NCBI RefSeq assembly: GCF_004143485.2
Contig: NZ_ML974135.1
Location: forward strand, 132,286-196,285
Source of the DNA: Halorussus amylolyticus
GTDB taxonomy: Archaea > Halobacteriota > Halobacteria > Halobacteriales > Haladaptataceae
Reading direction: 5' to 3'
Length of the DNA: 64,000 nt
Shown here piece after piece: positions 5,675 to 36,396 of the stretch; the stretch's first letter is position 1; every line of letters starts with the position of its first letter. The notes under the pieces are model-generated. The model was not told the origin of the DNA and made no database searches. It saw only the letters and a program-made list of their open reading frames with translations. The translations under genes and the position numbers were made by a program.

Positions 5675-8112
5675 TGGCACGCCTCGCAGGTCGGGTCCTC
5701 GACGCTCGGGAGGTCGCTCTCGTCGTTCGATTCATCGTCCTCGCTGTCCCCGCCGCCTGCGCCATCGTCCGCGCTCGACTGGCCGCGGGTCTGGGTCTTG
5801 CCGTACTCCGCCATGTCGAGCGTGGACTTCTCGATTTGGGACGCCCCGAGCGTCCGGAGGTAGTAGGTCGTCTTCACGCCGAGTTCCCACGCGGTCTGGT
5901 ACACGTCGTCTAACAGCGACCCGTCGGTGGAGGGGAAGAAGACGTTGTGCGACACCGACTGGTCTATCCACTGGCCGCGCCGGGCGGTCAACCGAAGTTG
6001 GTGGCGCGGGTCGATTTCGAACGCGCTCCGGTGGCGCTCGCGCACGTCCGCGGGAATCTCGTCTATCTCCTGAATCGACCCGTCGTGGAACTTGATTCGG
6101 TCCACCAACTCCGCGCTCCAGAGGTCTCGGTCCTTGAGGTCGGCGACGAGGTGGTCGTTGACCACGGTGAAGTCGCCGCTCATGTTCGACTTGACGTAGA
6201 GGTTCGAGTAGAGCGGTTCGATGGAGGGCGTCGTGCCCGCGATGGTCGAGATGGTCGCGGTCGGCGCGATTGCCATCGTGTTGGAATTTCGCATGCCGTA
6301 CTCGGCAATCGTTTCGCGAACCGCGTCCCAGTCCAGACGCTCCTCGCGCGGCAGGGGAATCTCCCGGCCGCGTTCGTCTTCGAGCAGGTCGAGGGTGTCG
6401 TGGGGCAGGATATCTCTGTCCCACTTCGACCCCTCGAACGAGGGGTACGCGCCGCGCTCGCCCGCCAACTCCGCGGAGGTCCGAATCGCGTGATACGAGA
6501 CGAACTCCTGGGCTTCGTCGGCGAACTCGACTGCGTCCTCGGACGCGAACGGAACGCCCTGCTCGATGAGCGATTCGTGGAATCCCATCACGCCCATGCC
6601 GATTGGCCGGTGGCGCATGTTCGAGCGCTCGGCCTCCTCGGTCGGGTAGAAATTGAGGTCCACGACGTTGTCGAGCATTCGCATGCCGGTCTCGACCGAC
6701 TCGCGCAGGCGCTCGCGGTCGAGACCGTCCGAACCGGTGTGCTCCGAGAGATTCACCGACCCGAGATTGCAGACCGCGTGTTCGTCTTGGCTCGTGTTGA
6801 GCGTGATTTCGGTGCAGAGGTTCGACGAGTGAACCACGCCCTCGTGGTCCTGGGGCGACCGGACGTTACAGGGGTCCTTGAAGGTAATCCACGGGTGGCC
6901 GGTCTCGAACAGGCGGGTGAGCGTGTCGCGCCAGAGGTCGGCGGCATCGACCGTCTCGTACTGGCGGAGTTCGCCCGCCTCGGCTTTCTCCTCGTACTCC
7001 CGGTACAGTTCCTCGAACTCCGCGCCGTACGTCTCGTGGAGTTCGGGCACCTCGTCCGGCGAGAACAGCGTCCACTCCTCGCCCGCCTGAACGCGCTTGA
7101 CGAACAGGTCCGGAATCCACGCCGCGGTGTTCATGTCGTGAGTCCGGCGGCGCTCGTCGCCCGTGTTGCGCCGGAGGTCGATGAACTCCGGGTAGTCGAG
7201 GTGCCAACACGCCAGATACGCGCAGGCCGCCCCGCGGCGCTTGCCCGACCGATTGATAGCCGCGGTCACGTCGTTCGAAATCTTGAGAAACGGCACGACG
7301 CCGGTGGACTCGACGCCAGTCGATTCGATGAGCGCGCCCGACGCGCGCAGGGGCGTCCAGTCGTTTCCGAGACCGCCGCTCCACTTCGAGAGCTGGGCGT
7401 GGCCCTTGTACGAGTCGAAGATGCCTTCGAGGTCGTCGGGAACGGTCGTCAGATAGCACGAACTCAACTGGGCGTGGGTCGTCCCGGCGTGGAACAGCGT
7501 CGGACTCGACGGCACGAACCGGAGCGTGGACATGACCTCGTAGAACTCCTGCGCGCGCTCCTCGCGCTCCGCGACGGGTTCGCGGAGCGCGAGGCCCATC
7601 GCCACCCGCATCCAGAAGCCCTGCGGGAGTTCGAGGCGCTCGCCGTCGGCGGTTTTGAGGAAGTACCGCTGGTAGAGCGTGTCGAGGGCCATGTAGTCGA
7701 ATCGCTCGTCGCGGTCGGGGACGAGCGCCCCGGCCATCTCGTCGAGGTCGTAGGCCAGCATTCGCTCGTCGAGCAGGCCCTCGGTCACGCCCCGGACGAC
7801 GTTCTCGGCGAACGTCTCGCGGTACGCCGAATCGAGGTCGTCGGGGCGCTCGCCGATTACCTCCCGGTTGTACTGTTCGCGAAAGAGCGCCGCGGCGACC
7901 CGCTTGTACGCGGGGTCGCGCTCGACGCGGGCGGTCGCCGCACCGATGGCGGCGTCGTACAGTTCCTCGCGGGACGCTCCCTCGTAGAGGCTTCGTTCGG
8001 TCTCGGTCACGAGGTCCGCCAGCACCTCGTCGGTGACGACGTCCTCGTTACCCCTCCGGGCGCGGTCGATGACCGCGCGTATCGTGTCTGTCGTGGTGGT
8101 CGTCTGACTCAT
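5671..8112 (-). CDS. nrdA: Ribonucleoside-diphosphate reductase large subunit (class I)
   Basis: Catalytic R1 subunit, 813 residues, which converts ribonucleotides to deoxyribonucleotides. Catalytic residues are present: Cys in SSCYLTT, the thiyl-radical Cys in SSNLCTEI, the partner Cys in AVCNLGSVNL, the tyrosine pair in TTYYLRTLGAS, and a C-terminal re-reduction pair CEAC just before the end. The loop-2 and substrate region GMRNSNTMAIAPTATIS is intact. The N terminus begins inside what is normally the ATP-cone: the basic VxKRDGxxE strand region is absent while the following helices are present, so overall-activity control by ATP/dATP may be altered. An acidic Ser/Asp/Glu-rich linker precedes the Cys tail. 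First gene of the nrdA-nrdB operon. Confidence 0.96.
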   Translation of the reverse strand: MSQTTTTTDTIRAVIDRARRGNEDVVTDEVLADLVTETERSLYEGASREELYDAAIGAATARVERDPAYKRVAAALFREQYNREVIGERPDDLDSAYRETFAENVVRGVTEGLLDERMLAYDLDEMAGALVPDRDERFDYMALDTLYQRYFLKTADGERLELPQGFWMRVAMGLALREPVAEREERAQEFYEVMSTLRFVPSSPTLFHAGTTHAQLSSCYLTTVPDDLEGIFDSYKGHAQLSKWSGGLGNDWTPLRASGALIESTGVESTGVVPFLKISNDVTAAINRSGKRRGAACAYLACWHLDYPEFIDLRRNTGDERRRTHDMNTAAWIPDLFVKRVQAGEEWTLFSPDEVPELHETYGAEFEELYREYEEKAEAGELRQYETVDAADLWRDTLTRLFETGHPWITFKDPCNVRSPQDHEGVVHSSNLCTEITLNTSQDEHAVCNLGSVNLSEHTGSDGLDRERLRESVETGMRMLDNVVDLNFYPTEEAERSNMRHRPIGMGVMGFHESLIEQGVPFASEDAVEFADEAQEFVSYHAIRTSAELAGERGAYPSFEGSKWDRDILPHDTLDLLEDERGREIPLPREERLDWDAVRETIAEYGMRNSNTMAIAPTATISTIAGTTPSIEPLYSNLYVKSNMSGDFTVVNDHLVADLKDRDLWSAELVDRIKFHDGSIQEIDEIPADVRERHRSAFEIDPRHQLRLTARRGQWIDQSVSHNVFFPSTDGSLLDDVYQTAWELGVKTTYYLRTLGASQIEKSTLDMAEYGKTQTRGQSSADDGAGGGDSEDDESNDESDLPSVEDPTCEACQ

Positions 8113-22196: not shown

Positions 22197-24674
22197 CTAC
22201 TCGTCCTCCCTCTCCCGAATCCGCTCTCGCACCCGGTTCGGCGTGAACGGAATCTGGTCGGCTTGCACGTCCAACGGCTCCAACGCCGCGTTTATCGAAC
22301 ACGCGAGGCTCGCCGGTCCGTCAATCATCCCGCCTTCTCCCGTGCCTTTCGCGCCGGTCGGAGTGAAGGGCGACGGCGTCTCGGTGTGGTCGAGTTCCAT
22401 CTCCGGGATGTTCTCGATGGACGGCAGGCGGTAGTCGAACATCGTGATGGCCTGGGGCTGACCGTCGTCGGCGTAGCCGAACTCCTCCAGGAGCGCCGCG
22501 CCGATGCCCTGCGCCAGACCGCCGTGGGCCTGCCCCTCGACTATCGTCGGATTGAGTTGGGTGCCGCAGTCCCGGAGCGAGTAGAATTTCAGAATCTCGA
22601 CCTCGCCGGTCTTGGCGTCCACCTCCACGATTGGCGCGTTCGCCGCGAACGCCGCGGTCGGGTACACCGGGAGCTTTCTGGCGAGCGCGTCGTCGAACTC
22701 CTCCAAGTCGGTCGCGGGGTGCTGGTAGTCGTAGCTCGCGCGGGTCAGTCGGTCGTCGTCGGGTCGCTCGCGGTCTCGCTCCGCGAGCGCCGCGAGCGAC
22801 AGGCGCTCGCCGCCCGCGCGTTCGACCGCGCCGTCGCGGTAGACCACGTCTCGGTCGGGGCAGTCCCACACCTCCGCGGCCAGGGTTTCGAGGTTCTCGG
22901 TCAGCGCCTCGCCGAGACCCTTCGCCGCGCCCGAGACCATCACCGCCATCCGCGAGGCGGCGGTGCCGTACTCGGTCGGGGCCTCGACGCTGTCGAGGTA
23001 GCGCACGTCGATGTCGCTCGAGAGGACGCCGAGTTCGTCGGCAAGCAGTTGGGTCACGAGCGTCTGGTGGCCCTGTCCCGACGAGTCGGTGGCGAGGAAG
23101 GCCCGCACCGTCCCGTCCGGCCGGATTTCCGCCCGGAGGTGTTCGGGGAGTTCGGCCACGTCGTCGCGGTCGCGGTCGGCGAGTCTCTCCCGATTCGAAC
23201 GCTGGCGGTCGGTCCAGTCCGACCCCGAGACGCCGGGTTCGATGTGGACCGTCGGGCGCGCGCCGCGGTACTTTCCCTCCGCGCGCTTGGCTTCGACGAC
23301 CTCGGGGTCGAGCAGGCCGCCGTCGCGCTCGTCCTCGATTTTCTCTTGGACGTGCGCGAGCGCGGCGGGGAAGTCGCCCGAGTCGTAGATGTTCTTCGAC
23401 GGGAGTTCGTAGGGCATCTGGTCGGACTCGATGAGATTCCGCCTGCGGAGAGCGTCGGGGTCCATTCCGATTTCCTCGGCGGCCTCGTCCACTATCATCT
23501 CCAACGCGTAGAGATGAGCGGGCACGCCGAATCCCCGGTAGGCTGTCTGACAGGTCTTGTTCGTCAGCACGAGGTCGTACTCGTACCGGGCGTCCTGCAC
23601 GTCGTAGGCGTTCGTGAGGACCGAAAGCGGCTTGAGGACCTGATTCACGGGGTAGCGCGGCCACGCGCCGAAGTCGTCCACGAACCAGAAATCGAGGCCG
23701 CGAATCGTGCCGTCGTCGTCCACCGCGAGTTTCACGTCGTACTCGCGCTCGGTCGAGTGCATGTCGCCGCCCTGCAGATTCTCGATGCGGTCCTCCACGA
23801 ACGCGACCGGTCGATTCAGTTCCTTGCTCGCCATCGCGGCGAGACAGCAGTAGCGGTGAATCGCGATTTTCGTCCCGAAGCTCCCGCCCACGTCGGGCGG
23901 CACGTCGAGGTTCACGTCGTCGGGGTCGTAGCCGAGCGTGTCGTAGACGGTGTCGTCCACGAGGGTGTGAAGCTGGATGTTGCAGTCGATGTCGAACGAG
24001 TCCGAATCGTCGTCGTAGTCGGCGACGACGCCCGCGGTTTCGAGCGGGACGCCCGAGATTCGACCCCACGAGTAAGAGCCTTCTACGACGTGGTCGGCGT
24101 CCGCGAACGCCCCGTCGGGGTCGCCGAAGGTGAGTTCCTCGTGGTCGCCGACGTTGGTTCCGAAGTCCTCGTGGACCAGCGTCTCGTCCTCGCGCGCGCC
24201 CCGGGGGTCCACCACCGGGTCGAGCGTGTCGTAGCTCACGTCCACGAGGTCCACCGCGTCCTCGGCGACGTACCGGTCGTCGGCGACCACGACCGCGACC
24301 GGTTCGCCGACGTAGCGCACCTTGCCGTCGGCGAGCGACCACTCCTCGAAGCCCGTCAGTCCCGCAGGCATCGGGTTGTAGTCGGCCTTGATGTCCTCGG
24401 CAGTCAGCACGAGGTGACAGCCGGGGTGGTCCTCGGCGGCGCTCGTGTCGATGGACTCGATTTCGGCGTGGGCGTGGACGCTCCGGTAGAGCGCCATGTG
24501 GAGCGCACTCTCGGGGGCCTTGTCGTGGATATACTCGGCTTCGCCCGTGAGGATGCGGCGGTCCTCGACGCGGTTGAGACCGCTCCCGGTGAATTTCTCG
24601 GAGGTAGCGCGCTCTGACCCCCGGGCGTCGGCCGAGGTGGAGCCGTCGGCGTCGGAGTCGGGACGGGAACTCAT
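22197..24674 (-). CDS. Molybdenum hydroxylase large subunit (xanthine dehydrogenase/CoxL family)
   Basis: 825-residue molybdopterin-binding catalytic subunit. The ATG at 24674 overlaps the small-subunit stop (ATGA). Family motifs: GSGLNRVEDRRILTGEAEYI at the start, DVGGSFGTKI for cofactor contact, and a late GAKGTGEGGMIDGPA block holding the catalytic Glu. The active-site loop reads TAYRGFGVPA, so the CSFR loop of form I CO dehydrogenase is absent; the enzyme is better placed with aldehyde/xanthine/form II-type hydroxylases. Substrate unknown. Confidence 0.9.
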   Translation of the reverse strand: MSSRPDSDADGSTSADARGSERATSEKFTGSGLNRVEDRRILTGEAEYIHDKAPESALHMALYRSVHAHAEIESIDTSAAEDHPGCHLVLTAEDIKADYNPMPAGLTGFEEWSLADGKVRYVGEPVAVVVADDRYVAEDAVDLVDVSYDTLDPVVDPRGAREDETLVHEDFGTNVGDHEELTFGDPDGAFADADHVVEGSYSWGRISGVPLETAGVVADYDDDSDSFDIDCNIQLHTLVDDTVYDTLGYDPDDVNLDVPPDVGGSFGTKIAIHRYCCLAAMASKELNRPVAFVEDRIENLQGGDMHSTEREYDVKLAVDDDGTIRGLDFWFVDDFGAWPRYPVNQVLKPLSVLTNAYDVQDARYEYDLVLTNKTCQTAYRGFGVPAHLYALEMIVDEAAEEIGMDPDALRRRNLIESDQMPYELPSKNIYDSGDFPAALAHVQEKIEDERDGGLLDPEVVEAKRAEGKYRGARPTVHIEPGVSGSDWTDRQRSNRERLADRDRDDVAELPEHLRAEIRPDGTVRAFLATDSSGQGHQTLVTQLLADELGVLSSDIDVRYLDSVEAPTEYGTAASRMAVMVSGAAKGLGEALTENLETLAAEVWDCPDRDVVYRDGAVERAGGERLSLAALAERDRERPDDDRLTRASYDYQHPATDLEEFDDALARKLPVYPTAAFAANAPIVEVDAKTGEVEILKFYSLRDCGTQLNPTIVEGQAHGGLAQGIGAALLEEFGYADDGQPQAITMFDYRLPSIENIPEMELDHTETPSPFTPTGAKGTGEGGMIDGPASLACSINAALEPLDVQADQIPFTPNRVRERIREREDE

Positions 24675-25252
24675 CGGTCGGCCTCCGTCTCGGTCGCTCC
24701 GTCGCCCGTCGCTTCCTCGTCGTCTGCCGCTCCTTCGTCGTCCGCTTCGCCGTCCATCCGGTCGGCGGCGCGAAGCACCGCGTCGTAGATGTTCTGATAC
24801 CCGGTACACCGACAGATGTTGTCGGCGAGTCCGTCCTCGATGTCGTCGCGGTCGGGGTCGGGTTCGCTGTCGAGGAGTTCCTTGGTCGCCATCACGAAAC
24901 CGCTGGTGCAGAAGCCACACTGGAGCGCGTGTTCCTCGTGGAACGACTCCTGAATCGGGTGGAGCGCGCCGTCGTCGGCCAGTCCCTCGACCGTCTCGAT
25001 GTCCGCGCCGTCGGCCTGGACCGCGTAGGTGAGACACGACTTGACGGCCCGGCCGTCCATCAGCACCGTGCAGGCTCCGCAGACGCCGTGTTCGCACCCG
25101 ACCCGAACGCCGCGCAAACCTCGGGCGTCCCGGAGGAAGTCCGAGAGCTTGTGACGGGGTTCGACCTCCGCGGTGACTTCCTCGCCGTTGACCGAGAGCG
25201 CGATTTCCTCGGTCGGGTAGTCGAGCGGACCGGATATGTCATTAACACTCAT
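24671..25252 (-). CDS. Molybdenum hydroxylase small [2Fe-2S] subunit (CoxS-like)
   Basis: 193-residue electron-transfer subunit with two [2Fe-2S] clusters: GCEHGVCGACTVLMDG in the plant-ferredoxin-like domain, and QCGFCTSGFVM with CRCTGYQNI in the helical domain. The ATG at 25252 is preferred to 25267 because a TTTAAG box at about 25281-25287 would start transcription between them. The tail is an acidic Glu/Asp/Ala extension of about 35 residues. First gene of the small-large operon. Confidence 0.93.
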   Translation of the reverse strand: MSVNDISGPLDYPTEEIALSVNGEEVTAEVEPRHKLSDFLRDARGLRGVRVGCEHGVCGACTVLMDGRAVKSCLTYAVQADGADIETVEGLADDGALHPIQESFHEEHALQCGFCTSGFVMATKELLDSEPDPDRDDIEDGLADNICRCTGYQNIYDAVLRAADRMDGEADDEGAADDEEATGDGATETEADR

Positions 25253-25331
25253 GAGAGATGTTGACATTCTGCTGGGTGGTGCTTAAACGTTGTCCCGAAA
25301 TCGCAGACTGAAGGGAGCTGTGCCAGCGCGA

Positions 25332-25405: not shown

Positions 25406-26416
25406 ATGAGCGACCTACTGGTGCGGGCCGCCCGCGGCGAGCGAACCGAGCGTCCCCCGGTGTGGCTGATGCGCCAAGCCGGGCGGTACATCCCCGAGTA
25501 CCGCGACATACGCGAGGAGTACACCTTCAAGCAGGCCATCTCGACCCCCGAGGTCGCCGAACGCATCACCCTCCTGCCGTGGGAGCTGTTCGAACCCGAC
25601 GGCCTGGTGATGTTCTCGGACATCCTCACGGTGCTCGAACCCCTCGGTCTCGACTATCACATCGAGAGCGGCGTCGGCCCCGTGGTCGAGAACCCCGTGA
25701 ACGGTCCCGCGGACGTGCCCGCGGGCCACGCGGACGTGCGCGAGGAACTCGGTTACGTGGGTGCCCTGCTGGAACGCCTGCAGGCCAGCATCGGCGACGA
25801 GACCAGCATCATCGGCTTCACCGGCGGCCCGTTCACCCTCGCGGCCTACGCGGTGGCGGGTCAGCCAGCCGGGAAGAAACAGCTTCCCATCCGAAAGTTC
25901 CGGGTCGAGCATCCAGACGCCTTCGCCGACCTGCTCGAACGCTTCGCCGACGTGGTGGTCGAGTACGTCGAGTACCAGGTCGAGGCGGGCGCGGACGTGA
26001 TTCAGCTGTTCGACACCTACGCCGGACTCCTCACGCCCGACGACTACGCGGAGTTCGTCCAACCGCTCCACCGGCGAATCCTCGACGCGGCCGACGTTCC
26101 CACCATCGTCTTCGCGCGAAACCCCGGCGGAAAGCTGGATTTACTCGCCGACTCGGGCGCGGACGTGGTGAGCCTCGACTGGACCGTGGACATGGCCGAC
26201 GCCCGCGAGCAGTTGGGCGAGACGCCCGTGCAGGGCAACCTCGACCCGACGTACCTGCTCGGCGATAGGGAATTCATCCGCGAGCGAACCGAATCCGTCA
26301 TCGAGAAGGCCGGACCGAAGGGCCACATCCTGAACCTCGGTCACGGCATCAATCGGAACACGCCGGTCGAGAACGCGCAGGCGTTCGTGGAGACTGCGAA
26401 GCAGTGGGAGTGGTGA
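25406..26416 (+). CDS. hemE: Uroporphyrinogen decarboxylase
   Basis: 336-residue cytoplasmic enzyme converting uroporphyrinogen III to coproporphyrinogen III. It has the N-terminal PVWLMRQAGRYIPEYR (usual P-x-W-x-MRQAGR substrate loop), FSDILTVLEPLG with the catalytic Asp, GFTGGPFTLAAY, and the C-terminal HILNLGHGI motif. Length matches the family. Present with HemG/HemY- and HemH-type genes 7-9 kb downstream, it indicates a porphyrin-intermediate heme route. Confidence 0.96.
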   Translation: MSDLLVRAARGERTERPPVWLMRQAGRYIPEYRDIREEYTFKQAISTPEVAERITLLPWELFEPDGLVMFSDILTVLEPLGLDYHIESGVGPVVENPVNGPADVPAGHADVREELGYVGALLERLQASIGDETSIIGFTGGPFTLAAYAVAGQPAGKKQLPIRKFRVEHPDAFADLLERFADVVVEYVEYQVEAGADVIQLFDTYAGLLTPDDYAEFVQPLHRRILDAADVPTIVFARNPGGKLDLLADSGADVVSLDWTVDMADAREQLGETPVQGNLDPTYLLGDREFIRERTESVIEKAGPKGHILNLGHGINRNTPVENAQAFVETAKQWEW

Positions 26417-26557
26417 CACTCACGCTGAAGTTCGAACAACCGGAATACTCATACCATATGTATTTCGATATATTCTCATGTACAGAGGAATTGCAGCGGA
26501 AAAAAGGACATATTTCGAACAGGACGTGGAAGGCGTTCGCAGTAGAGGTCAGTAGAC

Positions 26558-29500
26558 GTGGGTCGTGGTTCGCACGACCGGTCGCGGGCGGTACTATTGA
26601 CTGTCTGTCTTCTCTTCTCAGCGATAGCGTGGGTTCCCGCAGGAAGCGCGGCCGCGGGGAACGTTTCGTATTCTGACGCCTCCGTGACTCCGACTTCGCT
26701 GTACACCGGGAGTACGGTCAACGGAAGCGTCGTCGTCGAGAATACGGGGGGCGGAACGGAGACCTACAACGTCTCGCTGACGCTCGACGGGAGCGTCGTG
26801 GCGTGGGAGAACGGGACGATTGAGGCCAGCACGACCAAGCGCGTCTCGGTTCGGAAGACGCTCGAAGAGACCGGCGGCCGAACCGTCGCCGTCGCCGCAG
26901 GAAGCGCGAGCGCGACCGAAACGGTGACAGTGAAGAACGCCAACGCGAACTACCACGGCGGGGCGCGAAATCTCGGACACTATCCGGACCAGCAGGGACC
27001 GACGACCGAACCCGAGGAAGCGTGGAGCATCTCGGAAGGGGTCCCCCACGTGATGCAATCGACCATCGTGGACGGGACGCTGTACACCGCGTTCCACAAT
27101 GGTGGTAACCTCTACGCGCTCGACCCGGAGACGGGCGCGGAGAAATGGAGCGCGAATCCCGGCGGCACCGAGGGTTCGACGTGGACGACGCCCGCCTACG
27201 CCGACGGCGTCCTCTATCTCGGGAGTAACGACTACAAACTCCACGCTATCGACGCCGCGACCGGAAACGAACTCTGGCACTACGACACGCAGACCAACGT
27301 TCGCTCGGCCCCCGCAGTCGTGGACGGCGTCGTCTACGTCGGGAGCAACGACGGCAACATGACCGCGGTGAACGCCACCACCGGCGAGAAAATCTGGAAT
27401 TACGAACTCTATCAGCCCGTTCTCGTCGAATCGAACCCGGCGGTCGTGGACGACGTGGTCTACTTCGGGGGCAACGACGACAACGTCACGGCATTGAACG
27501 CCACCACCGGCGAGAAAATCTGGAACTTCACGCTCCCCGACGAGAGCCAGTCGGACCCGACTGTCGCCGACGGAACCGTCTTCATCGGGAGCGACAGCAG
27601 TATGGGGGAGACATCTGGAGACGGTACGATTCACGCGCTCGACGCCGAGACGGGCGCGGAGGACTGGAGCTATACGATGGCCGGAGACGTGGACTCCGGA
27701 CAGGTCTACGCCGACGGCGTCGTCTACGCCGCCAGTCGGGGCGGCGACCTCGCGGCGCTCGACGCCGCCGACGGGAGCGAGGTCTGGACCCAATCTGGAA
27801 CCGATTTCCGAGGCGCGCCGGTCGTCGCCAACGGCGTCGTCTACGTCTCGGACTTCGGAAACACGACGGTTCACGCCTTCGACGCGGATACCGGCGACCA
27901 ACTCTGGGAGTACGACTCACCGACGGGCACGCTGTACCCCACACCGCTCGTCTGGGACAACTACGTGTACTACGGGTCAGGCAGTCACTTCTACGCGCTC
28001 ACACCGCCCGCGCCCTCGATTTCGGACGTGAGTGCGACGAACCCCTCCGGGCAGAATCTCGCCGTCGAATTCAATTCCTCGGTGGCACTAGCGAGTCTCT
28101 CGGTGTCGGTGGACGGGCCATCTTCGACGACGTTCACCGAAAACGACTTCAGCGAGTCCGGGAGCGGTCCCTACACCTACACGCTCTCGTCCGAGTACGA
28201 GACCGGTGCGGACGGTGAGTACGAGGTCTCGGTCGATACCGCCGAAGACGCCGACGGCGCGGACGGCGCGACCGGCGAGTCCGACAGCGTGACAATCGAC
28301 ACGACCGACCCGACCGCCGACGCCGGAAACGACCAGACCGTCGCGTTCGGCGATACGGTGTCAGTGGACGCGGGCGGGTCGGCGGACAACCTCGGTATCG
28401 CAGACTACTCGTGGGACTTCGGCGACGGGAATACGGCCACGGGTGAGACAGCGACGAACGACTACGCCGATACGGGCGAGTACACGGTCACGCTGACGGT
28501 GACGGACGACGCGGGCCACACCGACACCGACACGCTGACCGTCACAGTCGAGGATAAGACCGACCCGACTGCCGACGCCGGAAACGACCAGACCATAGAC
28601 GAGGACGCCGCGACCTCGTTCGACGCGAGCGGTTCGTCGGACAACGTCGGCGTCACGGGCTACGCGTGGGAGTTCGGCGACGGAAACACCGCGACCGGCG
28701 CGACTCCGACTCACACCTACGCCGACCCCGGAACCTACACCGCCACCCTGACCGTTACCGACGGGGGAGGCAACACCGACACCGACTCTCTTACCGTCAC
28801 GGTGGAAGACACGACCCCGCCGACCGCCGACGCCGGGAGCGACCAGACCATCGACCAGAAGACCGCGACCACCTTCGACGGTAGTGGCTCGACCGACAAC
28901 GATGCCATCGACAGCTACGACTGGGACTTCGGGGACGGAAACACCTCAACGGGCGCGAATCCCACCCACACCTACGCCGCTCCCGGTGACTACACCGCCA
29001 CCCTCACTGTTGCCGACGGTGCAGGCCACACCGACACCGACACGCTGACCGTCACAGTCGAGGACGCGATTGCGCCGACGGTCGCCGCGGGAGGCGACAG
29101 GACGACAGACGAGGACGCCGCGACCTCGTTCGACGCGAGCGGTTCGTCGGACAACGTCGGCGTCACGGGCTACGCGTGGGAGTTCGGCGACGGGAACACC
29201 GCGACTGGCGCGACACCGAGCCACACCTACGCCGACCCCGGAACTTTCATCGCGAACGTCACGGTCAGCGACGACGCGGGCAACACGAACACCTCGGCGG
29301 TCACGGTGACGGTGAACGACATCACGCCGCCGACCGCCGACGCCGGAGCAGACCGAAGTGCGGACGTGAACGAGAACGTCGCGTTCGACGCCACGGACTC
29401 CTCGGACAACGACGCCATCGCGGCCTACTCGTGGGAGTTCGGAGACAACGACACCGCGACCGGCGCGACCCCGACCCACTCGTACGCTGAGTCGGGCACC

Positions 29501-30748
29501 TACACCGTGAACCTCACCGTCACCGACGACGTGGGGCACACCGACACCGAATCGCTAAACGTGACGGTGACCGCCCCTCCGGACAACTCGAACAGTCGGT
29601 CGCCGTCGAACTCCGGACCTTCGGATTCGGACGATAAAACGACGGAAATCGTCGTGAACGCGAGCGACGACGCCGACCGAAACGAAACCGATTCGGGGTC
29701 GTCGGTCGATGCGCGGGTTCGAAACGCCGAGGCCAACTCGACGGTCGCCATCGACCTCGGCGACGCCTCGAACGAGTCCGAGGAACCCGACGACGGGAGC
29801 GCCTCGGCACCGACCGACAGGGTCGAAAACGTCTCGGTGACGGGCATGGACATAAACGTCACGCGCTCGGGCGGCTTCACGCTGAACGTCACCTCCCGAA
29901 GCAGAACGCTGAACGGCACGAACGCCAGCGACGACTCCGAGCGAACTCCGGGCGAGCAGACCGCCGACAGACAGTCGGCCGAGAGTCTCTCGAAGACCGA
30001 CCGCGAGTTCGCCAACGAGACGGGCGCGCGTTCGGCGGGGCAGGTCGTTGTGAACCACTCGATTAGCGACGACGACATCGACGGCGTGACCTTCACCTTC
30101 GAGGTCCGCAAAACCTATCTGGACGCCGTCGGCGACCCCGAGTCGGTGGCACTCTACCGGAACGAACAGGTGCGCTGGCGAACGCTCTCGACAGAGCAGG
30201 TCGCCGAAACCGACACCCATTACGTCTTCGAGGCGGTCTCGCCCGGTCTCTCGGAGTTCACCGTCGGCGTCTCCTCGCCGCTGTTCGAGGTGCGTGAAGT
30301 GGCTCTCGACTCGAACGACGCCTCGCCGGGCGAGCAAGTGGAAGTCCGAGCAGTCGTCGAGAACGTCGGGGCCGCCGAGGGCACCTACGACCTGACCGTC
30401 CGCGCAGACGGCGAGACCACCGAAACTAAGTCGGTGACCGTCCCCGCCCGGAGCAATCGGACGGTTACGATTCCGGTGGAGTTCGAAACCGCGGGCACCT
30501 ACGACGTGTCGGCCGCCGGGAAGTCCGCGGGAGCAATTCAGGTCGAAACCGCCCGAGCGACGACCGAATCGGCCGCGACGACGACCGAACAGCCAAGCGA
30601 AGCGACGACCGAACAGTCAGGCGAAGTGACGACCGAAGCCACCACCAGCGAATCCGGATTCGGTTGGGCGAGGCTGCTGTTCGGCGTCGTCCTCGTCGGT
30701 GCGGGAATCGTCCTCTATCGGCGGCGGCAGGAGGACGGAGCAAACTGA
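26558..30748 (+). CDS. Giant secreted protein: beta-propeller, five PKD repeats, CARDB and C-terminal anchor
   Basis: 1396-residue surface protein with GTG start and a Sec-type signal peptide (hydrophobic segment about residues 12-33). Domain order: CARDB-like (35-130); PQQ-type beta-propeller with repeated GVVYVGSNDGN and TGEKIW blades (about 135-485); an Ig-like domain; five PKD domains of 85 residues (about 585-1005, each with DFGDGNT- or EFGDGNT-type signatures); a PGF-pre-PGF-like domain (about 1165-1245); a second CARDB; a Thr/Glu-rich stalk; and one transmembrane helix followed by RRRQ. The C terminus has SGFGWA where PGF-CTERM proteins have PGFG. Many NxS/T sites suit N-glycosylation. 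Likely adhesion or envelope role. Confidence 0.9.
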   Translation: MGRGSHDRSRAVLLTVCLLFSAIAWVPAGSAAAGNVSYSDASVTPTSLYTGSTVNGSVVVENTGGGTETYNVSLTLDGSVVAWENGTIEASTTKRVSVRKTLEETGGRTVAVAAGSASATETVTVKNANANYHGGARNLGHYPDQQGPTTEPEEAWSISEGVPHVMQSTIVDGTLYTAFHNGGNLYALDPETGAEKWSANPGGTEGSTWTTPAYADGVLYLGSNDYKLHAIDAATGNELWHYDTQTNVRSAPAVVDGVVYVGSNDGNMTAVNATTGEKIWNYELYQPVLVESNPAVVDDVVYFGGNDDNVTALNATTGEKIWNFTLPDESQSDPTVADGTVFIGSDSSMGETSGDGTIHALDAETGAEDWSYTMAGDVDSGQVYADGVVYAASRGGDLAALDAADGSEVWTQSGTDFRGAPVVANGVVYVSDFGNTTVHAFDADTGDQLWEYDSPTGTLYPTPLVWDNYVYYGSGSHFYALTPPAPSISDVSATNPSGQNLAVEFNSSVALASLSVSVDGPSSTTFTENDFSESGSGPYTYTLSSEYETGADGEYEVSVDTAEDADGADGATGESDSVTIDTTDPTADAGNDQTVAFGDTVSVDAGGSADNLGIADYSWDFGDGNTATGETATNDYADTGEYTVTLTVTDDAGHTDTDTLTVTVEDKTDPTADAGNDQTIDEDAATSFDASGSSDNVGVTGYAWEFGDGNTATGATPTHTYADPGTYTATLTVTDGGGNTDTDSLTVTVEDTTPPTADAGSDQTIDQKTATTFDGSGSTDNDAIDSYDWDFGDGNTSTGANPTHTYAAPGDYTATLTVADGAGHTDTDTLTVTVEDAIAPTVAAGGDRTTDEDAATSFDASGSSDNVGVTGYAWEFGDGNTATGATPSHTYADPGTFIANVTVSDDAGNTNTSAVTVTVNDITPPTADAGADRSADVNENVAFDATDSSDNDAIAAYSWEFGDNDTATGATPTHSYAESGTYTVNLTVTDDVGHTDTESLNVTVTAPPDNSNSRSPSNSGPSDSDDKTTEIVVNASDDADRNETDSGSSVDARVRNAEANSTVAIDLGDASNESEEPDDGSASAPTDRVENVSVTGMDINVTRSGGFTLNVTSRSRTLNGTNASDDSERTPGEQTADRQSAESLSKTDREFANETGARSAGQVVVNHSISDDDIDGVTFTFEVRKTYLDAVGDPESVALYRNEQVRWRTLSTEQVAETDTHYVFEAVSPGLSEFTVGVSSPLFEVREVALDSNDASPGEQVEVRAVVENVGAAEGTYDLTVRADGETTETKSVTVPARSNRTVTIPVEFETAGTYDVSAAGKSAGAIQVETARATTESAATTTEQPSEATTEQSGEVTTEATTSESGFGWARLLFGVVLVGAGIVLYRRRQEDGAN
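28598..29193 (+). repeat. Near-identical PKD coding repeats, 510 bp apart
   Basis: Bases 28598-28683 and 29108-29193 are identical over 86 bases. The 510-bp spacing equals exactly two 85-codon PKD units. The flanking GGCCACACCGACACCGACAC block also recurs with this spacing. This indicates recent duplication or gene conversion inside the PKD array. Confidence 0.85.
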
Positions 30749-30798
30749 GCAGACACAGCCGAGACGGTCGGGCGCGGAAATCCGAGCGCGCGGTTCGG

Positions 30799-31752
30799 CT
30801 ATCCCGAGCGACCAATCGCACACACGGTCGTCTCGATTCCGTCGCCCGCGAAGTCGCTATTTTCGTCGTCGGGACTGTACTCGACCGTAACGAAATCGGC
30901 GTCGTGACCGACGGTGACGGCGTCGCCATCGACGCCGGGGTCGGAGCGCACGGCGGCCGCCACCTCGTCGGTGGCGTCGTTCGACTCGACGCGCAGGCGG
31001 AGTCGAATTCCGTCGTCGCTGGCGGGAACCCACCCGTAGACCTGCGTGACGGCGTCGTACGCGTCCGAGTCGGACGCCGTCGTGTCGTCGCAGGAGAACT
31101 GAATCTCCTCGAACGAGAACCGGACGGTCGCTTCCGACGGCGTGCGCTCGAACGAGTCCAACGTCGTCCCGCCGACCGGGTCGGCGTCGCCGTGCCACAC
31201 GTCCGCGATAGTACGGACGACTTCGGGCGTGCCGAGCGCGAACTCGGTGTCGCCGAGGACCGCCGCGCTCGCGTCGTCGGTTCCGTACATCATCCGGTCC
31301 CGGTACGACTCCGAAGGAGTAGCATTCCCGCCTCCCGATTCGAGGACTTCGAGCAGTTCGTCGTCGGTCCAGTCGGCCCAGACGACCGCGCCGCCACCGT
31401 CACCGGTCTCCGAACCGACGAACGCCATCTTTCCGACCGCCTCCGGGTCGATGACGGACTGCGATTCGTCCCCGAACATCCCGACGAGCGCGTCAGGGAG
31501 GTCGTCGAACTGACCCGCGCCGAGCAGGGTTCGAGTCACGCCGTTCGCCGTATCCGATGACGCTATTTCGTCGGCATCGACCAACACGAGCGGGTCGCTC
31601 CCGGCGGGCACCGTCTTGGCGGTGAATCCCTCGGCACCGGGCGAGTCGTCGTCCGTCGCGAACTCGATTGCCGAAACGCCGACGATGCCGAGGCCGATTG
31701 CACCGACACCAGCGGTGAGTACGGTTCGTCGGGAGGGCTGATTCGAGGACAC
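30799..31752 (-). CDS. Tat-exported protein of unknown function
   Basis: 317 residues from the GTG at 31752, which places the twin-arginine motif SRRTVLTAGVGAIGLG right at the N terminus; a longer open frame to 32253 overlaps the next gene. No lipobox Cys is seen after the hydrophobic stretch. The mature part is acidic with repeated beta strands and two recurring half-domains (VLVDADEIASS, then MAFVGSETGDGGGAVVWADW, and later AVLGDTEFALGTPE), resembling haloarchaeal secreted proteins without known function. Convergent with the PKD protein gene. Confidence 0.72.
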   Translation of the reverse strand: MSSNQPSRRTVLTAGVGAIGLGIVGVSAIEFATDDDSPGAEGFTAKTVPAGSDPLVLVDADEIASSDTANGVTRTLLGAGQFDDLPDALVGMFGDESQSVIDPEAVGKMAFVGSETGDGGGAVVWADWTDDELLEVLESGGGNATPSESYRDRMMYGTDDASAAVLGDTEFALGTPEVVRTIADVWHGDADPVGGTTLDSFERTPSEATVRFSFEEIQFSCDDTTASDSDAYDAVTQVYGWVPASDDGIRLRLRVESNDATDEVAAAVRSDPGVDGDAVTVGHDADFVTVEYSPDDENSDFAGDGIETTVCAIGRSG

Positions 31753-31835
31753 GTGGTAGCTGTCAGAGCGTACATCAATAAGATTAGCTTCCCATTCGTC
31801 GCCTCGCTCGCCAACCGCCGGAGAGTGACTCTCGG

Positions 31836-33080
31836 CTACCGAAGCGCGCACACCACGCCTGACGTCCCCTTCGCGAGCGAGACGCCGGTTCCCACGAACA
31901 CTGTCTCCCCGACCGGCGCGAGGCCGCGAACCGCGCCCTCGGTGTCGAACGCCCACTTCCGTGAGCCGTCGGGAGCGAAGGCGAGGAGGCGATTCTGCGC
32001 GACTCCGGGCGTATCGTCGTCGGCGGAGGTCCCTGCGAGGACCGTCTCGCCGCCGACTGCGACCGACGTGACCCAGTCGCTCGACTCCCAGCGCCACCGC
32101 TCGGTGCCGTCTGCGAGCGAGCAGGCGACCAGCGCGTGGGAGCGGGCGCGCTGTTTGCCACGCCGAAACGAGAAGAAGCCCCGACCCCGACGGACCGCCG
32201 GAGAGCCAGTCACGACGGGATACTCGCCGTCCGAAAACTCGACTGCGCCCCACTCGCGCGTCCCGGTTTCGAGGTCGAAGGCGTACACGCTCTCACCGCC
32301 AGAGTGGGAGGGAAGGCCCTGCCCGACCATCGCTCGGTCGGCCGACACCACGGGCGGACGGAGGCTTCCGCCGCCGCGTTCGTCCCACTCGACGGGCGGC
32401 GATTCCCGAGTCAACACGTCGCTGATTCGGCGGGGTAGATACCGACGCACGCCGCCGCCGGACGCGAACAGCGCGCCGTTGGCGACCGCGGGGAGTCCGC
32501 CGTCTGCGGTCCACTTCGTGTCACCCGAATTCGCGGCGACCGCGGTCAGGTGGTAGTGCGACCCGGCGAAGACGGTGCCGTCGAGAGCGACGAGACCCTC
32601 CACGTCACCGACCGCCTCGCGCCATCGGCGCTCGCCGGTCTCGGTGTCGAAGGCGGTCAAGCCGCTCGATTCTCCGCGCGAACTGCCCGCGTAGAGCGTT
32701 CCGCGCCGAAGCGCGAGCGCGGACCCCACCACGTCGGAACTCCACGCGAGTTCGCCGTTCGCTCGGTCGAGCGCGGCGACACCGGAACCGCCGTCTTCGA
32801 CTCGGCCGCCGACGTAGACGCGCTCGGGGCCGACCACGAGAGACTGGACGTGTTCGACCGGTCGCGCGCGCCACGCGACGGTCGGGTTCGAAGGCGGAGA
32901 GGCGTGCGGATTCGAGGCCGCGTTGCGGAGGTCGTAGCGGTCGTGGGGCCACGTGCCGATAGAGGGCGTCCACGCATCGAGGGGGCCGACGCCGATTCGG
33001 GTCGTCGCGCCCGCGACACCCGCCGTGCCGATTGCGACGCCGCCCGCGAGAAGTCGGCGGCGCGTGAGTTCGGGGACCAT
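31836..33080 (-). CDS. Tat-exported PQQ-like beta-propeller protein
   Basis: 414 residues with twin-arginine signal TRRRLLAGGVAIGTAGV. The mature protein is one beta-propeller with recurring blades: RVYVGGR-type strand, AALDRANGELAWSSD, AFDTETGERRWRE, AFDLETGTREW and CSLADGTERWRWE. The W-docking motif fits PQQ-binding-like or BamB-like scaffolds, but cofactor residues are not evident. Possible extracellular scaffold or sensor. Unlinked in function to the neighbouring gene as far as seen. Confidence 0.82.
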   Translation of the reverse strand: MVPELTRRRLLAGGVAIGTAGVAGATTRIGVGPLDAWTPSIGTWPHDRYDLRNAASNPHASPPSNPTVAWRARPVEHVQSLVVGPERVYVGGRVEDGGSGVAALDRANGELAWSSDVVGSALALRRGTLYAGSSRGESSGLTAFDTETGERRWREAVGDVEGLVALDGTVFAGSHYHLTAVAANSGDTKWTADGGLPAVANGALFASGGGVRRYLPRRISDVLTRESPPVEWDERGGGSLRPPVVSADRAMVGQGLPSHSGGESVYAFDLETGTREWGAVEFSDGEYPVVTGSPAVRRGRGFFSFRRGKQRARSHALVACSLADGTERWRWESSDWVTSVAVGGETVLAGTSADDDTPGVAQNRLLAFAPDGSRKWAFDTEGAVRGLAPVGETVFVGTGVSLAKGTSGVVCALR

Positions 33081-33138
33081 CGTTCGAGCCGAGACGTGTC
33101 GGGGGAAAAGAAGCTTCGATGCGCGACCTTCGACGGAC

Positions 33139-34527
33139 TTACCGCGCGGCCAACTCCTCGGCCACCGACTCGGCCTCCCGAATCCGAGACGGCACGCCCA
33201 TCCGGGCGGTGTAGTTCGTCGCCAGTCGAATCCCGTCGGGCAGATTCACGTCGTCCAGCGCGGCCCACGAGTCGTCGTACGCCGGGAAGCCGCGCCCGAG
33301 GTGGTGGACTTCCACGACCTCCGCGGGCGCGCCCGTGACTTCCTCGAACTCCCGACTCGCGACCTCGCCGAGGTAGTCGTCGCTCTCGGCCAGAATCTCG
33401 GGGTCGTGCATCCCGCCGAGGAAGACCGTACAAACACCGTCACTTCGCTCCGCTCGTGACGAGCTCGCACTCGCTTCGCTCGCGCGAACCCCCCGGTCGA
33501 ACATGCTCGCGTTCCACGAGACGCCGAGGGTGCGAAGGTCCTCGCCGAAGCCGACCTGATAGCCGAGCGCGTCGGGGTCCACGTCGCCCTCAGCGAGGTC
33601 GGCCCGGAGATAGACCATCGCGAGCGGATTGTAGGTCAGATTGCGAAGCGCGTCCGCTGAGTCGGGCGCGAGGTCCGAAACGAGGTCGGCGGTCAGGTCC
33701 GCGGGCGTGGTCAGCACCACGTCCGAAACGTGGGTCGTTCCGTCGGGCGTTTCGAGTAGCCATCCACCCTCGCGCTCGTCGTCACGGCCGTCCGCTCCGC
33801 GGACGGCCGTGACGGGCGTTCCGAGCCGAATCGAGTCGGCGTGCGCCTCCGCGAGCGCCTCCGGCAGTCGCTGGAGACCGTCGTCGAACGAGATGGCGGG
33901 CGGCGTCTCGCGGTCGCTCGCCGCGCGCTTGAGCGCGGTCTTCAGCAGACTTCCGTCGCGGGCTTCGAGCTTTAGCAGGCCCGAGAGCGCGTGTTCGACC
34001 GGCATCGCTTCGGGGTTCGAGCCGTAGATGCCGCCGAACAGCGGGCCGAGCAGATTCCGGTAGGCCTCTCGTCCGAACTTCCGAGTGAACAGTTCGGCGG
34101 CCGATTCCTCGGGGTCGCCGGGGGCGGTGAACGGTTCGGAGAGGACTTCGCGCTTGGCGTCGGCCGAGAGCAGGTCGGTCGTCGCGAACTCCTCGGGAGT
34201 GAACGGGGCCTGTCGGAGCTTTCCGTCGGCGTAGACGCGAATGTGGAGGTCGGGGTCGGCAGTTCGAACCTCCGATTCGAGGTCGAGGTCCCGAATCAGT
34301 TCGTCGATGTGGTCCGTGCGCCGGATTCGCTGGGGTCCGTATTCGAGCAGGTGGCCCGCGACGCGCTCGCTCCGGACGACGCCGCCGGGGTCGGGCGCGG
34401 CCTCGAACAGTTCGAACTCGACGCCCTCGCGGTCGAGATAGTGGGCGAGCGCGAGACCGGTGACGCCGCCGCCGACGATGCCGACCGCGGCCGCTCGGCC
34501 GCGGTCGGCGTGTCCGTCTGCCGTCAT
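33139..34527 (-). CDS. hemG: Protoporphyrinogen/coproporphyrinogen oxidase (HemG/HemY type)
   Basis: 462-residue FAD oxidase. The ATG at 34527 overlaps the hemH stop (ATGA). N-terminal dinucleotide fold: VGIVGGGVTGLALAHYLDRE, then PGGVVRSERVAGHLLEYGP as in HemY. The C-terminal FAD block reads GIRLATNYTARMGVPSRIREA. It oxidises protoporphyrinogen IX or coproporphyrinogen III. With hemH in the same operon and no HemF/HemN here, use in the coproporphyrin-dependent pathway (CgoX role) is possible. Bases around 33440-33490 encode a short Ser/Ala/Arg insertion. Confidence 0.88.
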   Translation of the reverse strand: MTADGHADRGRAAAVGIVGGGVTGLALAHYLDREGVEFELFEAAPDPGGVVRSERVAGHLLEYGPQRIRRTDHIDELIRDLDLESEVRTADPDLHIRVYADGKLRQAPFTPEEFATTDLLSADAKREVLSEPFTAPGDPEESAAELFTRKFGREAYRNLLGPLFGGIYGSNPEAMPVEHALSGLLKLEARDGSLLKTALKRAASDRETPPAISFDDGLQRLPEALAEAHADSIRLGTPVTAVRGADGRDDEREGGWLLETPDGTTHVSDVVLTTPADLTADLVSDLAPDSADALRNLTYNPLAMVYLRADLAEGDVDPDALGYQVGFGEDLRTLGVSWNASMFDRGVRASEASASSSRAERSDGVCTVFLGGMHDPEILAESDDYLGEVASREFEEVTGAPAEVVEVHHLGRGFPAYDDSWAALDDVNLPDGIRLATNYTARMGVPSRIREAESVAEELAAR

Positions 34528-35567
34528 CGCGGCGCGTTCAGGCACATCGCGCCGGGTGAATCCGAGCACTGGCACTGTCGGAACTGGTAGTAGCCGGGGT
34601 CGAAGTCGCCCACGAACGGTTCGGCGAGGTCGGCGAGGACGTCCGAGAATCTGTCGTCGTCGTGGGGGACCGGCACCCGGTAGAAGTCGAGACCGAGTTC
34701 CGCCGCCTCCTCGGCGAGTTCGTCGTCGAGTTCCGAGAGCGTCTCGCTCTGTTCGTGCATGAAGCTGACCGGTTCGACCACGACGCGGTCGGCCTCGACG
34801 GTTTCGAGGGCGTCCTCAACGTCGGGTTCGGTCCACGGAATGTCGCGGTTCTCGTGGTTCTGGTAGCCGAGCGTGTACGACTCGACGCCGAGCTTTCGGG
34901 CGATAACCTCGCAGAACTCGGTGACGTAGGTGTCGTATCGGCTCCCTTCGTCGAGGTAATGGCTCGGCGTGCCGTGAGCCGAGTAGAGGAGTTCGGTGTC
35001 GTCGTCGGTCAGGTCGAGGTTGTGAGCGTCGGCGAATCGGCGGACGTTGTCGGCCCGAATCTCGTTGTAGAGCGGGTGGCGGTGCCAGCCCGTGATTTCG
35101 GCGACCGACACGTCCCAATCGCTGTCGGCCACCGCATCCGTCATCTCTTCGAGCGAGGCGACGGTCGTGGAAGCTCCACAGAGCGGGTAGACCGGAAGCC
35201 CGACCAGTTCATCGACGCCATCGTCGCGGGCGGCCTCGACCGCGTCGGAGATGAACGGCTCGGTGAACTGCATCCCGAGGTAGGTCTTCACGTCGTAGCC
35301 CCGGTCGCGGAGTTCCGCGCCGAGCGCGTCGGCTTGCGCCTCCGCTTGCGGATTCAGCGGGGAGCCGCCGATTTCCTCGTACTCCTCGATGAGTCCGGGC
35401 GCGCGCCGCTCCGCGAGCTGGCGGGCGCGCTCGCGGGCCTCCTCCTCGGTGTCGGCCTCCTCCAGCGAGGCGTTGTTGAGGAAGATGCGTTCGAGATACG
35501 CGACGACGTTTTCGCGGGTCGGTTCTGACGGCTCGCCGAAGTTGAGCAGGACGACCCCTGTGGTCAT
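34524..35567 (-). CDS. hemH: Ferrochelatase
   Basis: 347-residue enzyme inserting Fe(II) into porphyrin. Family motifs: VVLLNFGEP at the start, SPLNPQAEAQA, GMQFTEPFI, the LLYSAHGTPSHYL His motif, YTLGYQNHENRDIPW, and VVVEPVSFMHEQSETL with the metal-site Glu. The last residues include CQCSDSPGAMC, a C-terminal Cys cluster that could help hold a [2Fe-2S] cluster as in some ferrochelatases. Operon with hemG by ATGA overlap. Confidence 0.93.
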   Translation of the reverse strand: MTTGVVLLNFGEPSEPTRENVVAYLERIFLNNASLEEADTEEEARERARQLAERRAPGLIEEYEEIGGSPLNPQAEAQADALGAELRDRGYDVKTYLGMQFTEPFISDAVEAARDDGVDELVGLPVYPLCGASTTVASLEEMTDAVADSDWDVSVAEITGWHRHPLYNEIRADNVRRFADAHNLDLTDDDTELLYSAHGTPSHYLDEGSRYDTYVTEFCEVIARKLGVESYTLGYQNHENRDIPWTEPDVEDALETVEADRVVVEPVSFMHEQSETLSELDDELAEEAAELGLDFYRVPVPHDDDRFSDVLADLAEPFVGDFDPGYYQFRQCQCSDSPGAMCLNAPR

Positions 35568-35688: not shown

Positions 35689-36396
35689 ATGACGCTTGCA
35701 TCAATTATCGACGACGTGACTGGGAGCGCGCGCACCTTGACCGTCTACAATCACAGAAACCCGGACGCCTTGGACGCCATCGAGCGCCACTTCTCGGTTC
35801 AGAACGTCGAAGTCGAGCAGGCGGACGTGCCGGACGCCCCCCACAGTTTCGCGGTGCTCCACGACGACGGGGAGTTCCTCGCGGCGTCGGGCGTCGAGGA
35901 CCTCCGGGCCGCGGTGTCGTTCGAGACGGGGCTGGTCGAGAACACCGACTTCGAGGCGCTCGACCGGCCGGACGTGCTCGAACACGTCAGCGACACCACG
36001 TTCTCCGACTACGGAAAGCGCAGGATGATTCTTGCGTCCCGCGAAATCGAGGAGCGGGCGTGGCGCGCGGGCGGCGGCGAACTCCGCGCCGGTTTCCAAC
36101 ACCTCTCGCTCCTGCGCGACCAGTGGGACGTCTACGCCAAACTCGCCGACCAAGGCGTCGAGGTCCACGTGTACGGCGCTCCAGATTGGGAACCGCCGAA
36201 GACCGAGCGCATCACGGTCCACGAGTCCGACGCGCCCGAGATGCGAGACGCGTGGTTCGTGGCGTTCGAGTCGTCCGACGCCACCGACTGCGCGCTCGTG
36301 GCCGACGAGCGCGAGCCGAACGCGTTCGAGGGGTTCTGGAGCTACGACGAGGAAATCGTGGCCGACGTGTTCGACTACCTCCGAACCGAGTACTGA
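35689..36396 (+). CDS. DICT-domain sensory protein
   Basis: 235-residue soluble protein built of a single DICT domain (the sensory domain found beside diguanylate cyclases and two-component proteins). It shows DDVTGSARTLTVYNHRNPD at the N terminus, AVSFETGLVENTDF, a central Arg/Lys helix SDYGKRRMILASREIEERA, and a C-terminal DCALVADEREPNAFEGFWSYD block. Free-standing DICT proteins occur in haloarchaea and may sense light or redox, but this is not shown here. An ATTTATA box is about 38 bases upstream. Confidence 0.8.
   Translation: MTLASIIDDVTGSARTLTVYNHRNPDALDAIERHFSVQNVEVEQADVPDAPHSFAVLHDDGEFLAASGVEDLRAAVSFETGLVENTDFEALDRPDVLEHVSDTTFSDYGKRRMILASREIEERAWRAGGGELRAGFQHLSLLRDQWDVYAKLADQGVEVHVYGAPDWEPPKTERITVHESDAPEMRDAWFVAFESSDATDCALVADEREPNAFEGFWSYDEEIVADVFDYLRTEY

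Follow-up and report, generated by a model that had tools for sequence, protein, structure and literature searches.

Two described routes to heme pass through coproheme. The coproporphyrin-dependent (CPD) pathway of Gram-positive bacteria comprises UroD, CgoX, CpfC and ChdC, and the siroheme pathway comprises AhbA/B, AhbC and AhbD. In the haloarchaeon Haloferax volcanii, which has Ahb genes, phenotypes have been shown that place PitA in aerobic and AhbD in anaerobic heme synthesis; in that study, uroD, cgoX and cpfC are given as absent and the aerobic origin of coproheme is left open (Kosugi 2017). The subject here is a stretch of 64,000 nucleotides from Halorussus amylolyticus (contig NZ_ML974135.1, positions 132,286 to 196,285, forward strand; hereafter the window) that carries hemE, hemY and hemH, the genes for uroporphyrinogen decarboxylase, a CgoX-type flavin oxidase and a CpfC-type ferrochelatase. 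Together with PitA, encoded elsewhere in the genome, they very probably make up a complete CPD pathway that replaces the siroheme branch. Judged by gene content, the HemE-HemY-HemH module substitutes for AhbA/B/C in about a quarter of the haloarchaea examined. The gene set is well known, the host is unexpected, and the native route is sharply and repeatedly excluded.

The window's genome (G000 in our numbering) has all four enzyme families of the Gram-positive pathway, and neither HemF nor HemN was found in it. It differs from the bacterial system in its archaeal host, in a ChdC that is a PitA fusion, and in an AhbD-type gene, often kept in these haloarchaea as a possible second last step. To our knowledge, the CpfC of Bacillus and Listeria is without the C-terminal cysteine motif seen in haloarchaeal HemH. 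With the siroheme pathway, the gene set of G000 would have the intermediate coproheme in common, and an AhbD-type gene is present; searches of this genome found neither AhbA/B nor AhbC. The PitA and AhbD gene types of H. volcanii are both present, but the gene content is otherwise the reverse of that published for H. volcanii (Kosugi 2017).

A combination of hemE and hemH in the absence of Ahb genes has been reported in archaea before: among 59 archaea, Storbeck 2010 gives the two genes only in Picrophilus and two Thermoplasma. There hemY was not recognised, whereas the haloarchaeal set has it. The same source lists Halorhabdus utahensis as lacking AhbA/B genes, and in our named-genome scan two other Halorhabdus species have hemH and hemE. 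According to Pfeiffer 2021, haloarchaea use the Ahb pathway, with chdC in nearly all and ahbD in two thirds of them; its main text does not mention 'hemH'. Siddaramappa 2012 (PMC3403918) places ahbC and ahbD in some haloarchaea and not in others. In two reviews, archaea are entered as siroheme users (2024, Table 1; PMC10991733) and the siroheme route is described in members of Archaea (2020; PMC7242693). No report of a HemE-HemY-HemH pathway in haloarchaea was found among open-access titles and abstract openings, subscription papers and preprints being outside the scope of the search. The three genes are already annotated individually in RefSeq.

The identity of the trio was judged by NCBIfam models with curated NCBI cut-offs. 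Each gene is a full-length, uninterrupted open reading frame (ORF) scoring above its cut-off (Table 1), in agreement with the first-pass annotation of the window, and the oxidase is HemY-type by model, though NCBI annotation of its relatives reads hemG. That annotation had seen no HemF or HemN in the window and had left the CPD and the classical route open; the whole-genome searches likewise found neither enzyme, and only the CPD part has stood. A PitA-type ChdC fusion, which it had suggested looking for, is encoded outside the window by the single ChdC-family gene of G000 (PF06778, 209 bits). On NF007124 (cut-off 446) this protein reaches 842 bits; its score on NF008913, the model for hydrogen peroxide-dependent heme synthase (cut-off 253), is 311. 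Its translation shows a ChdC domain followed by a His-rich linker and, at the C-terminus, a heme-oxygenase-like (ABM-like) part with weak similarity to heme oxygenase families, under their cut-offs. HemN (TIGR00538, E ≤ 1e-30) was found in 0/194 haloarchaeal genomes, including G000, and in 8/14 control genomes; HemF was found in none of the 49 HemH-positive genomes, including G000, the search having covered these 49 and not the other 145. The CPD route is preferred because PitA is present while HemF and HemN were not found, and the classical protoporphyrin route is rejected on the latter ground. A complete Ahb set in G000 is also rejected: neither AhbA/B (PF17805, E ≤ 1e-8; three first-look candidates scored) nor AhbC (TIGR04546, E ≤ 1e-50) gave a match, and the sole Ahb-type gene remaining is the AhbD-like gene for a radical S-adenosylmethionine (radical-SAM) enzyme. 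Both outcomes contrary to the first-pass idea, that set and HemN/HemF without ChdC, are thereby absent from the genome.

By analogy with established knowledge of these families, an order of reactions can be proposed. HemE would convert uroporphyrinogen III into coproporphyrinogen III, which HemY would oxidise to coproporphyrin III. HemH, probably carrying a [2Fe-2S] cluster, would then insert iron to give coproheme, the known substrate of ChdC, and PitA would take two carboxyl groups off coproheme to yield heme b in air. The AhbD-type radical-SAM enzyme, whose gene is followed by a second hemY, might provide an oxygen-free last step.

A sample of 194 haloarchaeal genomes was drawn evenly across the class, and each marker, HemF apart, was searched in all of them. 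HemH (PF00762), HemE (TIGR01464 above cut-off) and HemY (TIGR00562 above cut-off) were each found in 49 genomes, the same 49 in every case; two further genomes have HemY matches under the cut-off. The siroheme decarboxylase AhbA/B was found in 149, that is, in all 145 HemH-negative genomes and in four of the 49 HemH-positive ones (G085, G159, G180 and G191). Most genomes gave four AhbA/B domain matches, as expected for two two-domain proteins. Genomes with neither AhbA/B nor HemH numbered 0/194. The exclusion corresponds to a Fisher p of ~7e-40, uncorrected for kinship, and because the genomes are related, more weight is placed on the repeated switches. By hand count, HemH-positive and HemH-negative species stand side by side in five families (f2, f3, f4, f5, f10) and within three genera; the HemH-positive member is without AhbA/B in g38 and g47 and has both routes in g49 (G159). 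One hemY frame of the sample, G137:C1:175013-176278, holds a single internal TAG, which may be an error or mark a pseudogene.

The ChdC family (PF06778) was found in 193/194 genomes, all 49 HemH-positive ones included, the exception being G014. The PitA fusion was read only in G000; elsewhere, membership of the ChdC family means a PF06778 match. Full-length AhbC (match running from query position 1 to 386 or beyond, with a score of 380 bits or more) occurs in 110 genomes, namely 108/145 HemH-negative and 2/49 HemH-positive (G180, G191). Shorter or weaker matches, left uncounted, are present in the HemH-positive G050, G062, G079, G085, G089, G105, G140, G145, G165 and G166. Either set appears able to stand in for the other as the source of coproheme for a last step that both have in common. 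Such an either-or of two unrelated front halves feeding one last enzyme would show, with unusual sharpness, how gene transfer can replace a pathway, and the pattern predicts which species depend on hemH.

Full-length AhbC is also missing from 37 of the 145 genomes that are AhbA/B-positive and HemH-negative (e.g. G003, G010, G014, G015, G019). All of these 37 except G014 have a ChdC-family gene, and a few are only 93-97% complete. In these genomes, the step from didecarboxysiroheme to coproheme may be carried out by a substitute for AhbC that tolerates oxygen.

The genes of the trio keep close company. HemE is encoded within 10 kb of HemH in 45/49 genomes, and in 35/49 a same-strand hemY lies no more than 1 kb from hemH. 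Among 80 named loci, hemY follows hemH by no more than 500 bp in 48, its start lying between -60 and +30 in 47; a -4 overlap was scored in 25 of the 48, by a script that took the in-frame start nearest -4 and so favoured that value. In the window the junction reads CG-ATGA-CGG, with the hemH TGA stop and the hemY ATG inside the overlap. Because of this junction, hemY likely has the extent given in Table 1 rather than that of the longer mechanical ORF ending at 34575. Since the ATGA is common to both genes, they are probably translationally coupled, as the first-pass annotation had held. The window's hemE is on the opposite strand about 8 kb away (match-to-match gap 8,218 bp), outside the hemH-hemY operon.

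C-terminal [2Fe-2S] clusters are found in the ferrochelatases of human, M. tuberculosis and Caulobacter, among others. HemH of the window resembles these enzymes in three tail cysteines (Cys332, Cys334, Cys342), here spaced C-x-C-x7-C within CQCSDSPGAMC. The three are invariant in 49/49 haloarchaeal HemH and occur in 12/12 Gemmatimonadota HemH as well; an internal cysteine, Cys130, is present in 45/49 and replaced by serine in four (G001, G007, G079, G093). The His198 and Glu272 columns, which we take to be catalytic, are invariant in 49/49. The tail spacing agrees with the motif CX(1,11)CX(1,11)C, drawn from eight characterised ferrochelatases in a survey from which archaeal genomes had been removed (Weerth 2021, PMC8529089). 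The idea of a [2Fe-2S] cluster, raised by the first-pass annotation from the tail, gains from this cysteine conservation, and HemH probably carries one. Zinc binding or another role of the tail cysteines would agree with the serine found at the fourth position in some proteins; it appears unlikely, given the invariance of the other three and a spacing shared with a motif whose source enzymes include the C-terminal type (Weerth 2021). The AlphaFold2 model of HemH (mean predicted local distance difference test score, pLDDT, 89.1) matches human, yeast and Listeria ferrochelatases, with template-modelling (TM) scores of 0.79-0.83 for the human enzyme (query length) and 0.85-0.87 for Listeria CpfC (target length). 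The predicted fold does not separate the coproporphyrin and protoporphyrin substrate classes.

The AhbD-type gene of G000 lies on a different contig from the window (G000:C2:231463-232443). Its protein scores 478 bits on the unnamed family TIGR04053 (cut-off 395) and is 67% identical to the copy in G075 and 63% identical to that in G180, both near AhbC; a pair named AhbC/AhbD is given for Haloterrigena turkmenica in PMC3403918. When control genomes were searched toward the AhbD family of H. volcanii, six matched, H. volcanii included, two of them above the cut-off. With presence set at a best TIGR04545 E < 1e-75, the gene is found in 35/49 HemH-positive genomes, 32 of these 35 without AhbA/B. 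AhbD is not a fixed part of the pathway, because 14/49 are without the gene at this threshold.

In some species the AhbD-type gene has a hemY or hemH of its own beside it. By hand count, 11/35 genomes (G000, G024, G161, G175, G001, G007, G042, G074, G090, G140, G145) have a same-strand hemY no more than 3 kb from it, and in four the distance is at most 81 bp. In G000 a cupredoxin-domain ORF lies just before the AhbD-type gene, which is followed by the second hemY (G000:C2:231463-234112; L043:10341-13128). In Haloarculaceae archaeon H-GB1-1 (L128:4859-7050), the gene stands 17 bases upstream of a divergent hemH on the same strand, its stop ending at 5983 and HemH starting at 6001; the assembly has another hemH with hemY and hemE nearby. 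The second Halorussus HemY falls in a different lineage from the first in a quick tree rooted at the midpoint, grouping with HemY of G042, G001 and relatives, and is not a recent copy. The AhbD-linked HemY proteins do not form a clade of their own, because this lineage takes in HemY of Natronococcus and Halonotius, where the gene stands upstream of hemH.

An oxygen-independent counterpart of ChdC in bacteria is described as yet unknown in PMC10965808. The chances seem about even that AhbD, freed from AhbA/B/C, finishes the coproheme of HemE-HemY-HemH without oxygen, PitA acting in air and AhbD without it in the same cell. If this holds, haloarchaeal AhbD would be the kind of enzyme still sought for the bacterial CPD pathway, and it is offered as a test case for that missing last step.

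Plasmids carry the trio in several genera. A tblastn search with HemH against 72,556 plasmid records gave 94 records with a match; in 15 of them, replicons 220-828 kb in size, the match spans 80% or more of the query. These belong to Halorussus (7), Haloterrigena (3), Haladaptatus (2), Halomicrococcus, Halopiger and Natronorubrum. All 15 records also have hemE, and the whole trio was read in two. Chromosomal hemH was found in, for instance, Haladaptatus pallidirubidus, Natribaculum breve, Salinibaculum litoreum and Halovenus salina. We infer that plasmids mediated the spread of the trio. H. turkmenica still holds both front halves: its trio is on plasmid pHTUR01 (698,495 bp), and in G180, taken to be this species, AhbA/B, AhbC and the AhbD-type gene are on contig C1. 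This arrangement would represent a replacement in progress. Consecutive hemE-hemH-hemG genes were also seen on a bacterial plasmid, pDEIPR01 of Deinococcus proteolyticus (L163).

The HemY and HemH families serve coproporphyrin and protoporphyrin routes alike, and the substrate is not fixed by sequence; this is the first of several points that weigh against a complete CPD pathway. Both routes coexist in four genomes, and in 14/49 hemY lies outside the 1-kb range of hemH. The AhbD-type gene is missing at the chosen threshold from 14/49, and Cys130 of HemH is serine in 4/49. Moreover, the AhbD-type protein of G000 reaches only 322-323 bits on TIGR04545 (AhbD), below the cut-off of 500. One alternative is a disguised protoporphyrin route, in which the TIGR04053 protein would act on coproporphyrinogen III in the manner of HemN, the adjacent second HemY (HemY2) would oxidise protoporphyrinogen IX and HemH would make heme. 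The closeness of the radical-SAM gene to hemY in 11/35 genomes, at most 81 bp in four, would suit it, as would the score below the AhbD cut-off and a modelled HemH fold that resembles both classes of ferrochelatase. It is nevertheless improbable: the radical-SAM gene is missing by threshold from 14/49 genomes whereas a ChdC-family gene is present in 49/49, and relatives 63-67% identical stand near AhbC in the siroheme-route genomes G075 and G180, such a pair being called AhbC/AhbD in PMC3403918.

A complete CPD pathway is also preferred to a role of the trio in another tetrapyrrole or in a spare supply, with heme supplied by the siroheme route or by uptake. The presence of both gene sets in four genomes would fit such a role, as would the heme importer suggested for H. 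volcanii in Kosugi 2017; it is very improbable all the same, since 45 of the 49 trio genomes lack AhbA/B, 47 lack full-length AhbC, all 49 have a ChdC-family gene and none of the 194 is without both sets. Chance or an assembly artefact is rejected, the trio recurring in 49/194 genomes and hemH with hemE on 15 named haloarchaeal plasmids.

To trace ancestry, 84,980 named genomes were scanned using an alignment of 28 HemH sequences. Among the best 80 of 164 HemH relatives, 68 are archaeal and 12 come from Gemmatimonadota bins at 56-61% identity. Haloarchaeal HemH are 53-88% identical to that of the window, so that the Gemmatimonadota proteins are as close as some of them. The closest relatives belong to Halorussus (80-90%), and the window's hemE is 85-88% identical to that of seven Halorussus plasmids. 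Within the phylum, full-length HemH (>200 bits) occurs in 17/383 genomes, all of the window's order. Matches at E ≤ 0.001 were obtained in 65/383, 48 of them partial and at most 30.6 bits, ten being above the 27-bit family cut-off.

The 12 Gemmatimonadota HemH form one clade that branches close to the base of the haloarchaeal set, with a support of 99 in the Shimodaira-Hasegawa-like approximate likelihood ratio test (SH-aLRT), and the two groups together split from five bacterial outgroup rows. Gemmatimonadota HemY (8 rows) likewise form a single clade. Within the available sequence, the 12 loci (L136-L159) hold hemH in 12, hemE in 11 and a convergent hemY in eight; hemE is incomplete at a contig end in L137, and none was found in the available part of L158. 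Locus L145 includes, in addition, the end of a TIGR04053 gene. By these trees, HemH and HemY of haloarchaea and Gemmatimonadota share ancestry; the outgroup branches are very long and give no direction of transfer. Gemmatimonadota HemE is 37-40% identical to HemE of the window, no closer than other listed bacteria (35-40%), so HemE may come from another source. Haloarchaeal contamination of the bins was considered and judged unlikely, given the HemH clade support and this low hemE identity in 11/12 loci. The HemH of Haloterrigena clusters with that of Halospeciosus at a support of 99, next to Halolamina, which points to transfer among haloarchaea.

Table 1. Heme-synthesis features of the window (positions within the 64,000-nucleotide stretch)
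Feature	Position	Strand	Basis
hemE (UroD), uroporphyrinogen decarboxylase	25406..26416	+	336 aa; TIGR01464 349 bits (cut-off 303)
hemY (CgoX-type flavin oxidase)	33139..34527	-	462 aa; TIGR00562 148 bits (cut-off 98)
hemH (CpfC-type ferrochelatase)	34524..35567	-	347 aa; TIGR00109 183 bits (cut-off 125)
ATGA shared by hemH (stop) and hemY (start)	34524..34527	-	direct sequence reading
HemH tail C-x-C-x7-C codons, putative [2Fe-2S] ligands	34542..34574	-	Cys332, Cys334, Cys342
HemH Cys130 codon, putative fourth cluster ligand	35178..35180	-	Cys in 45/49, Ser in 4

Between hemE and hemY lie genes for a PKD/PQQ-repeat protein (26558-30748, +) and a PQQ-repeat protein (31836-33080, -). The former is large and secreted-looking; it combines five PKD repeats with a beta-propeller of PQQ type. 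The mechanical listing also gives a reverse-strand ORF at 30799-32253 in this interval, in whose scanned part (30802-31668) no Pfam match was found. Adjoining hemE, positions 22197-25267 encode a xanthine dehydrogenase/CO dehydrogenase-like large subunit and a [2Fe-2S] small subunit. Divergent from hemH, a DICT-domain protein is encoded at 35689-36396; a relative of it stands upstream of hemH in 5/80 named loci (L081, L082, L085, L087, L090) and in H. salilacus, and it is a possible regulator.

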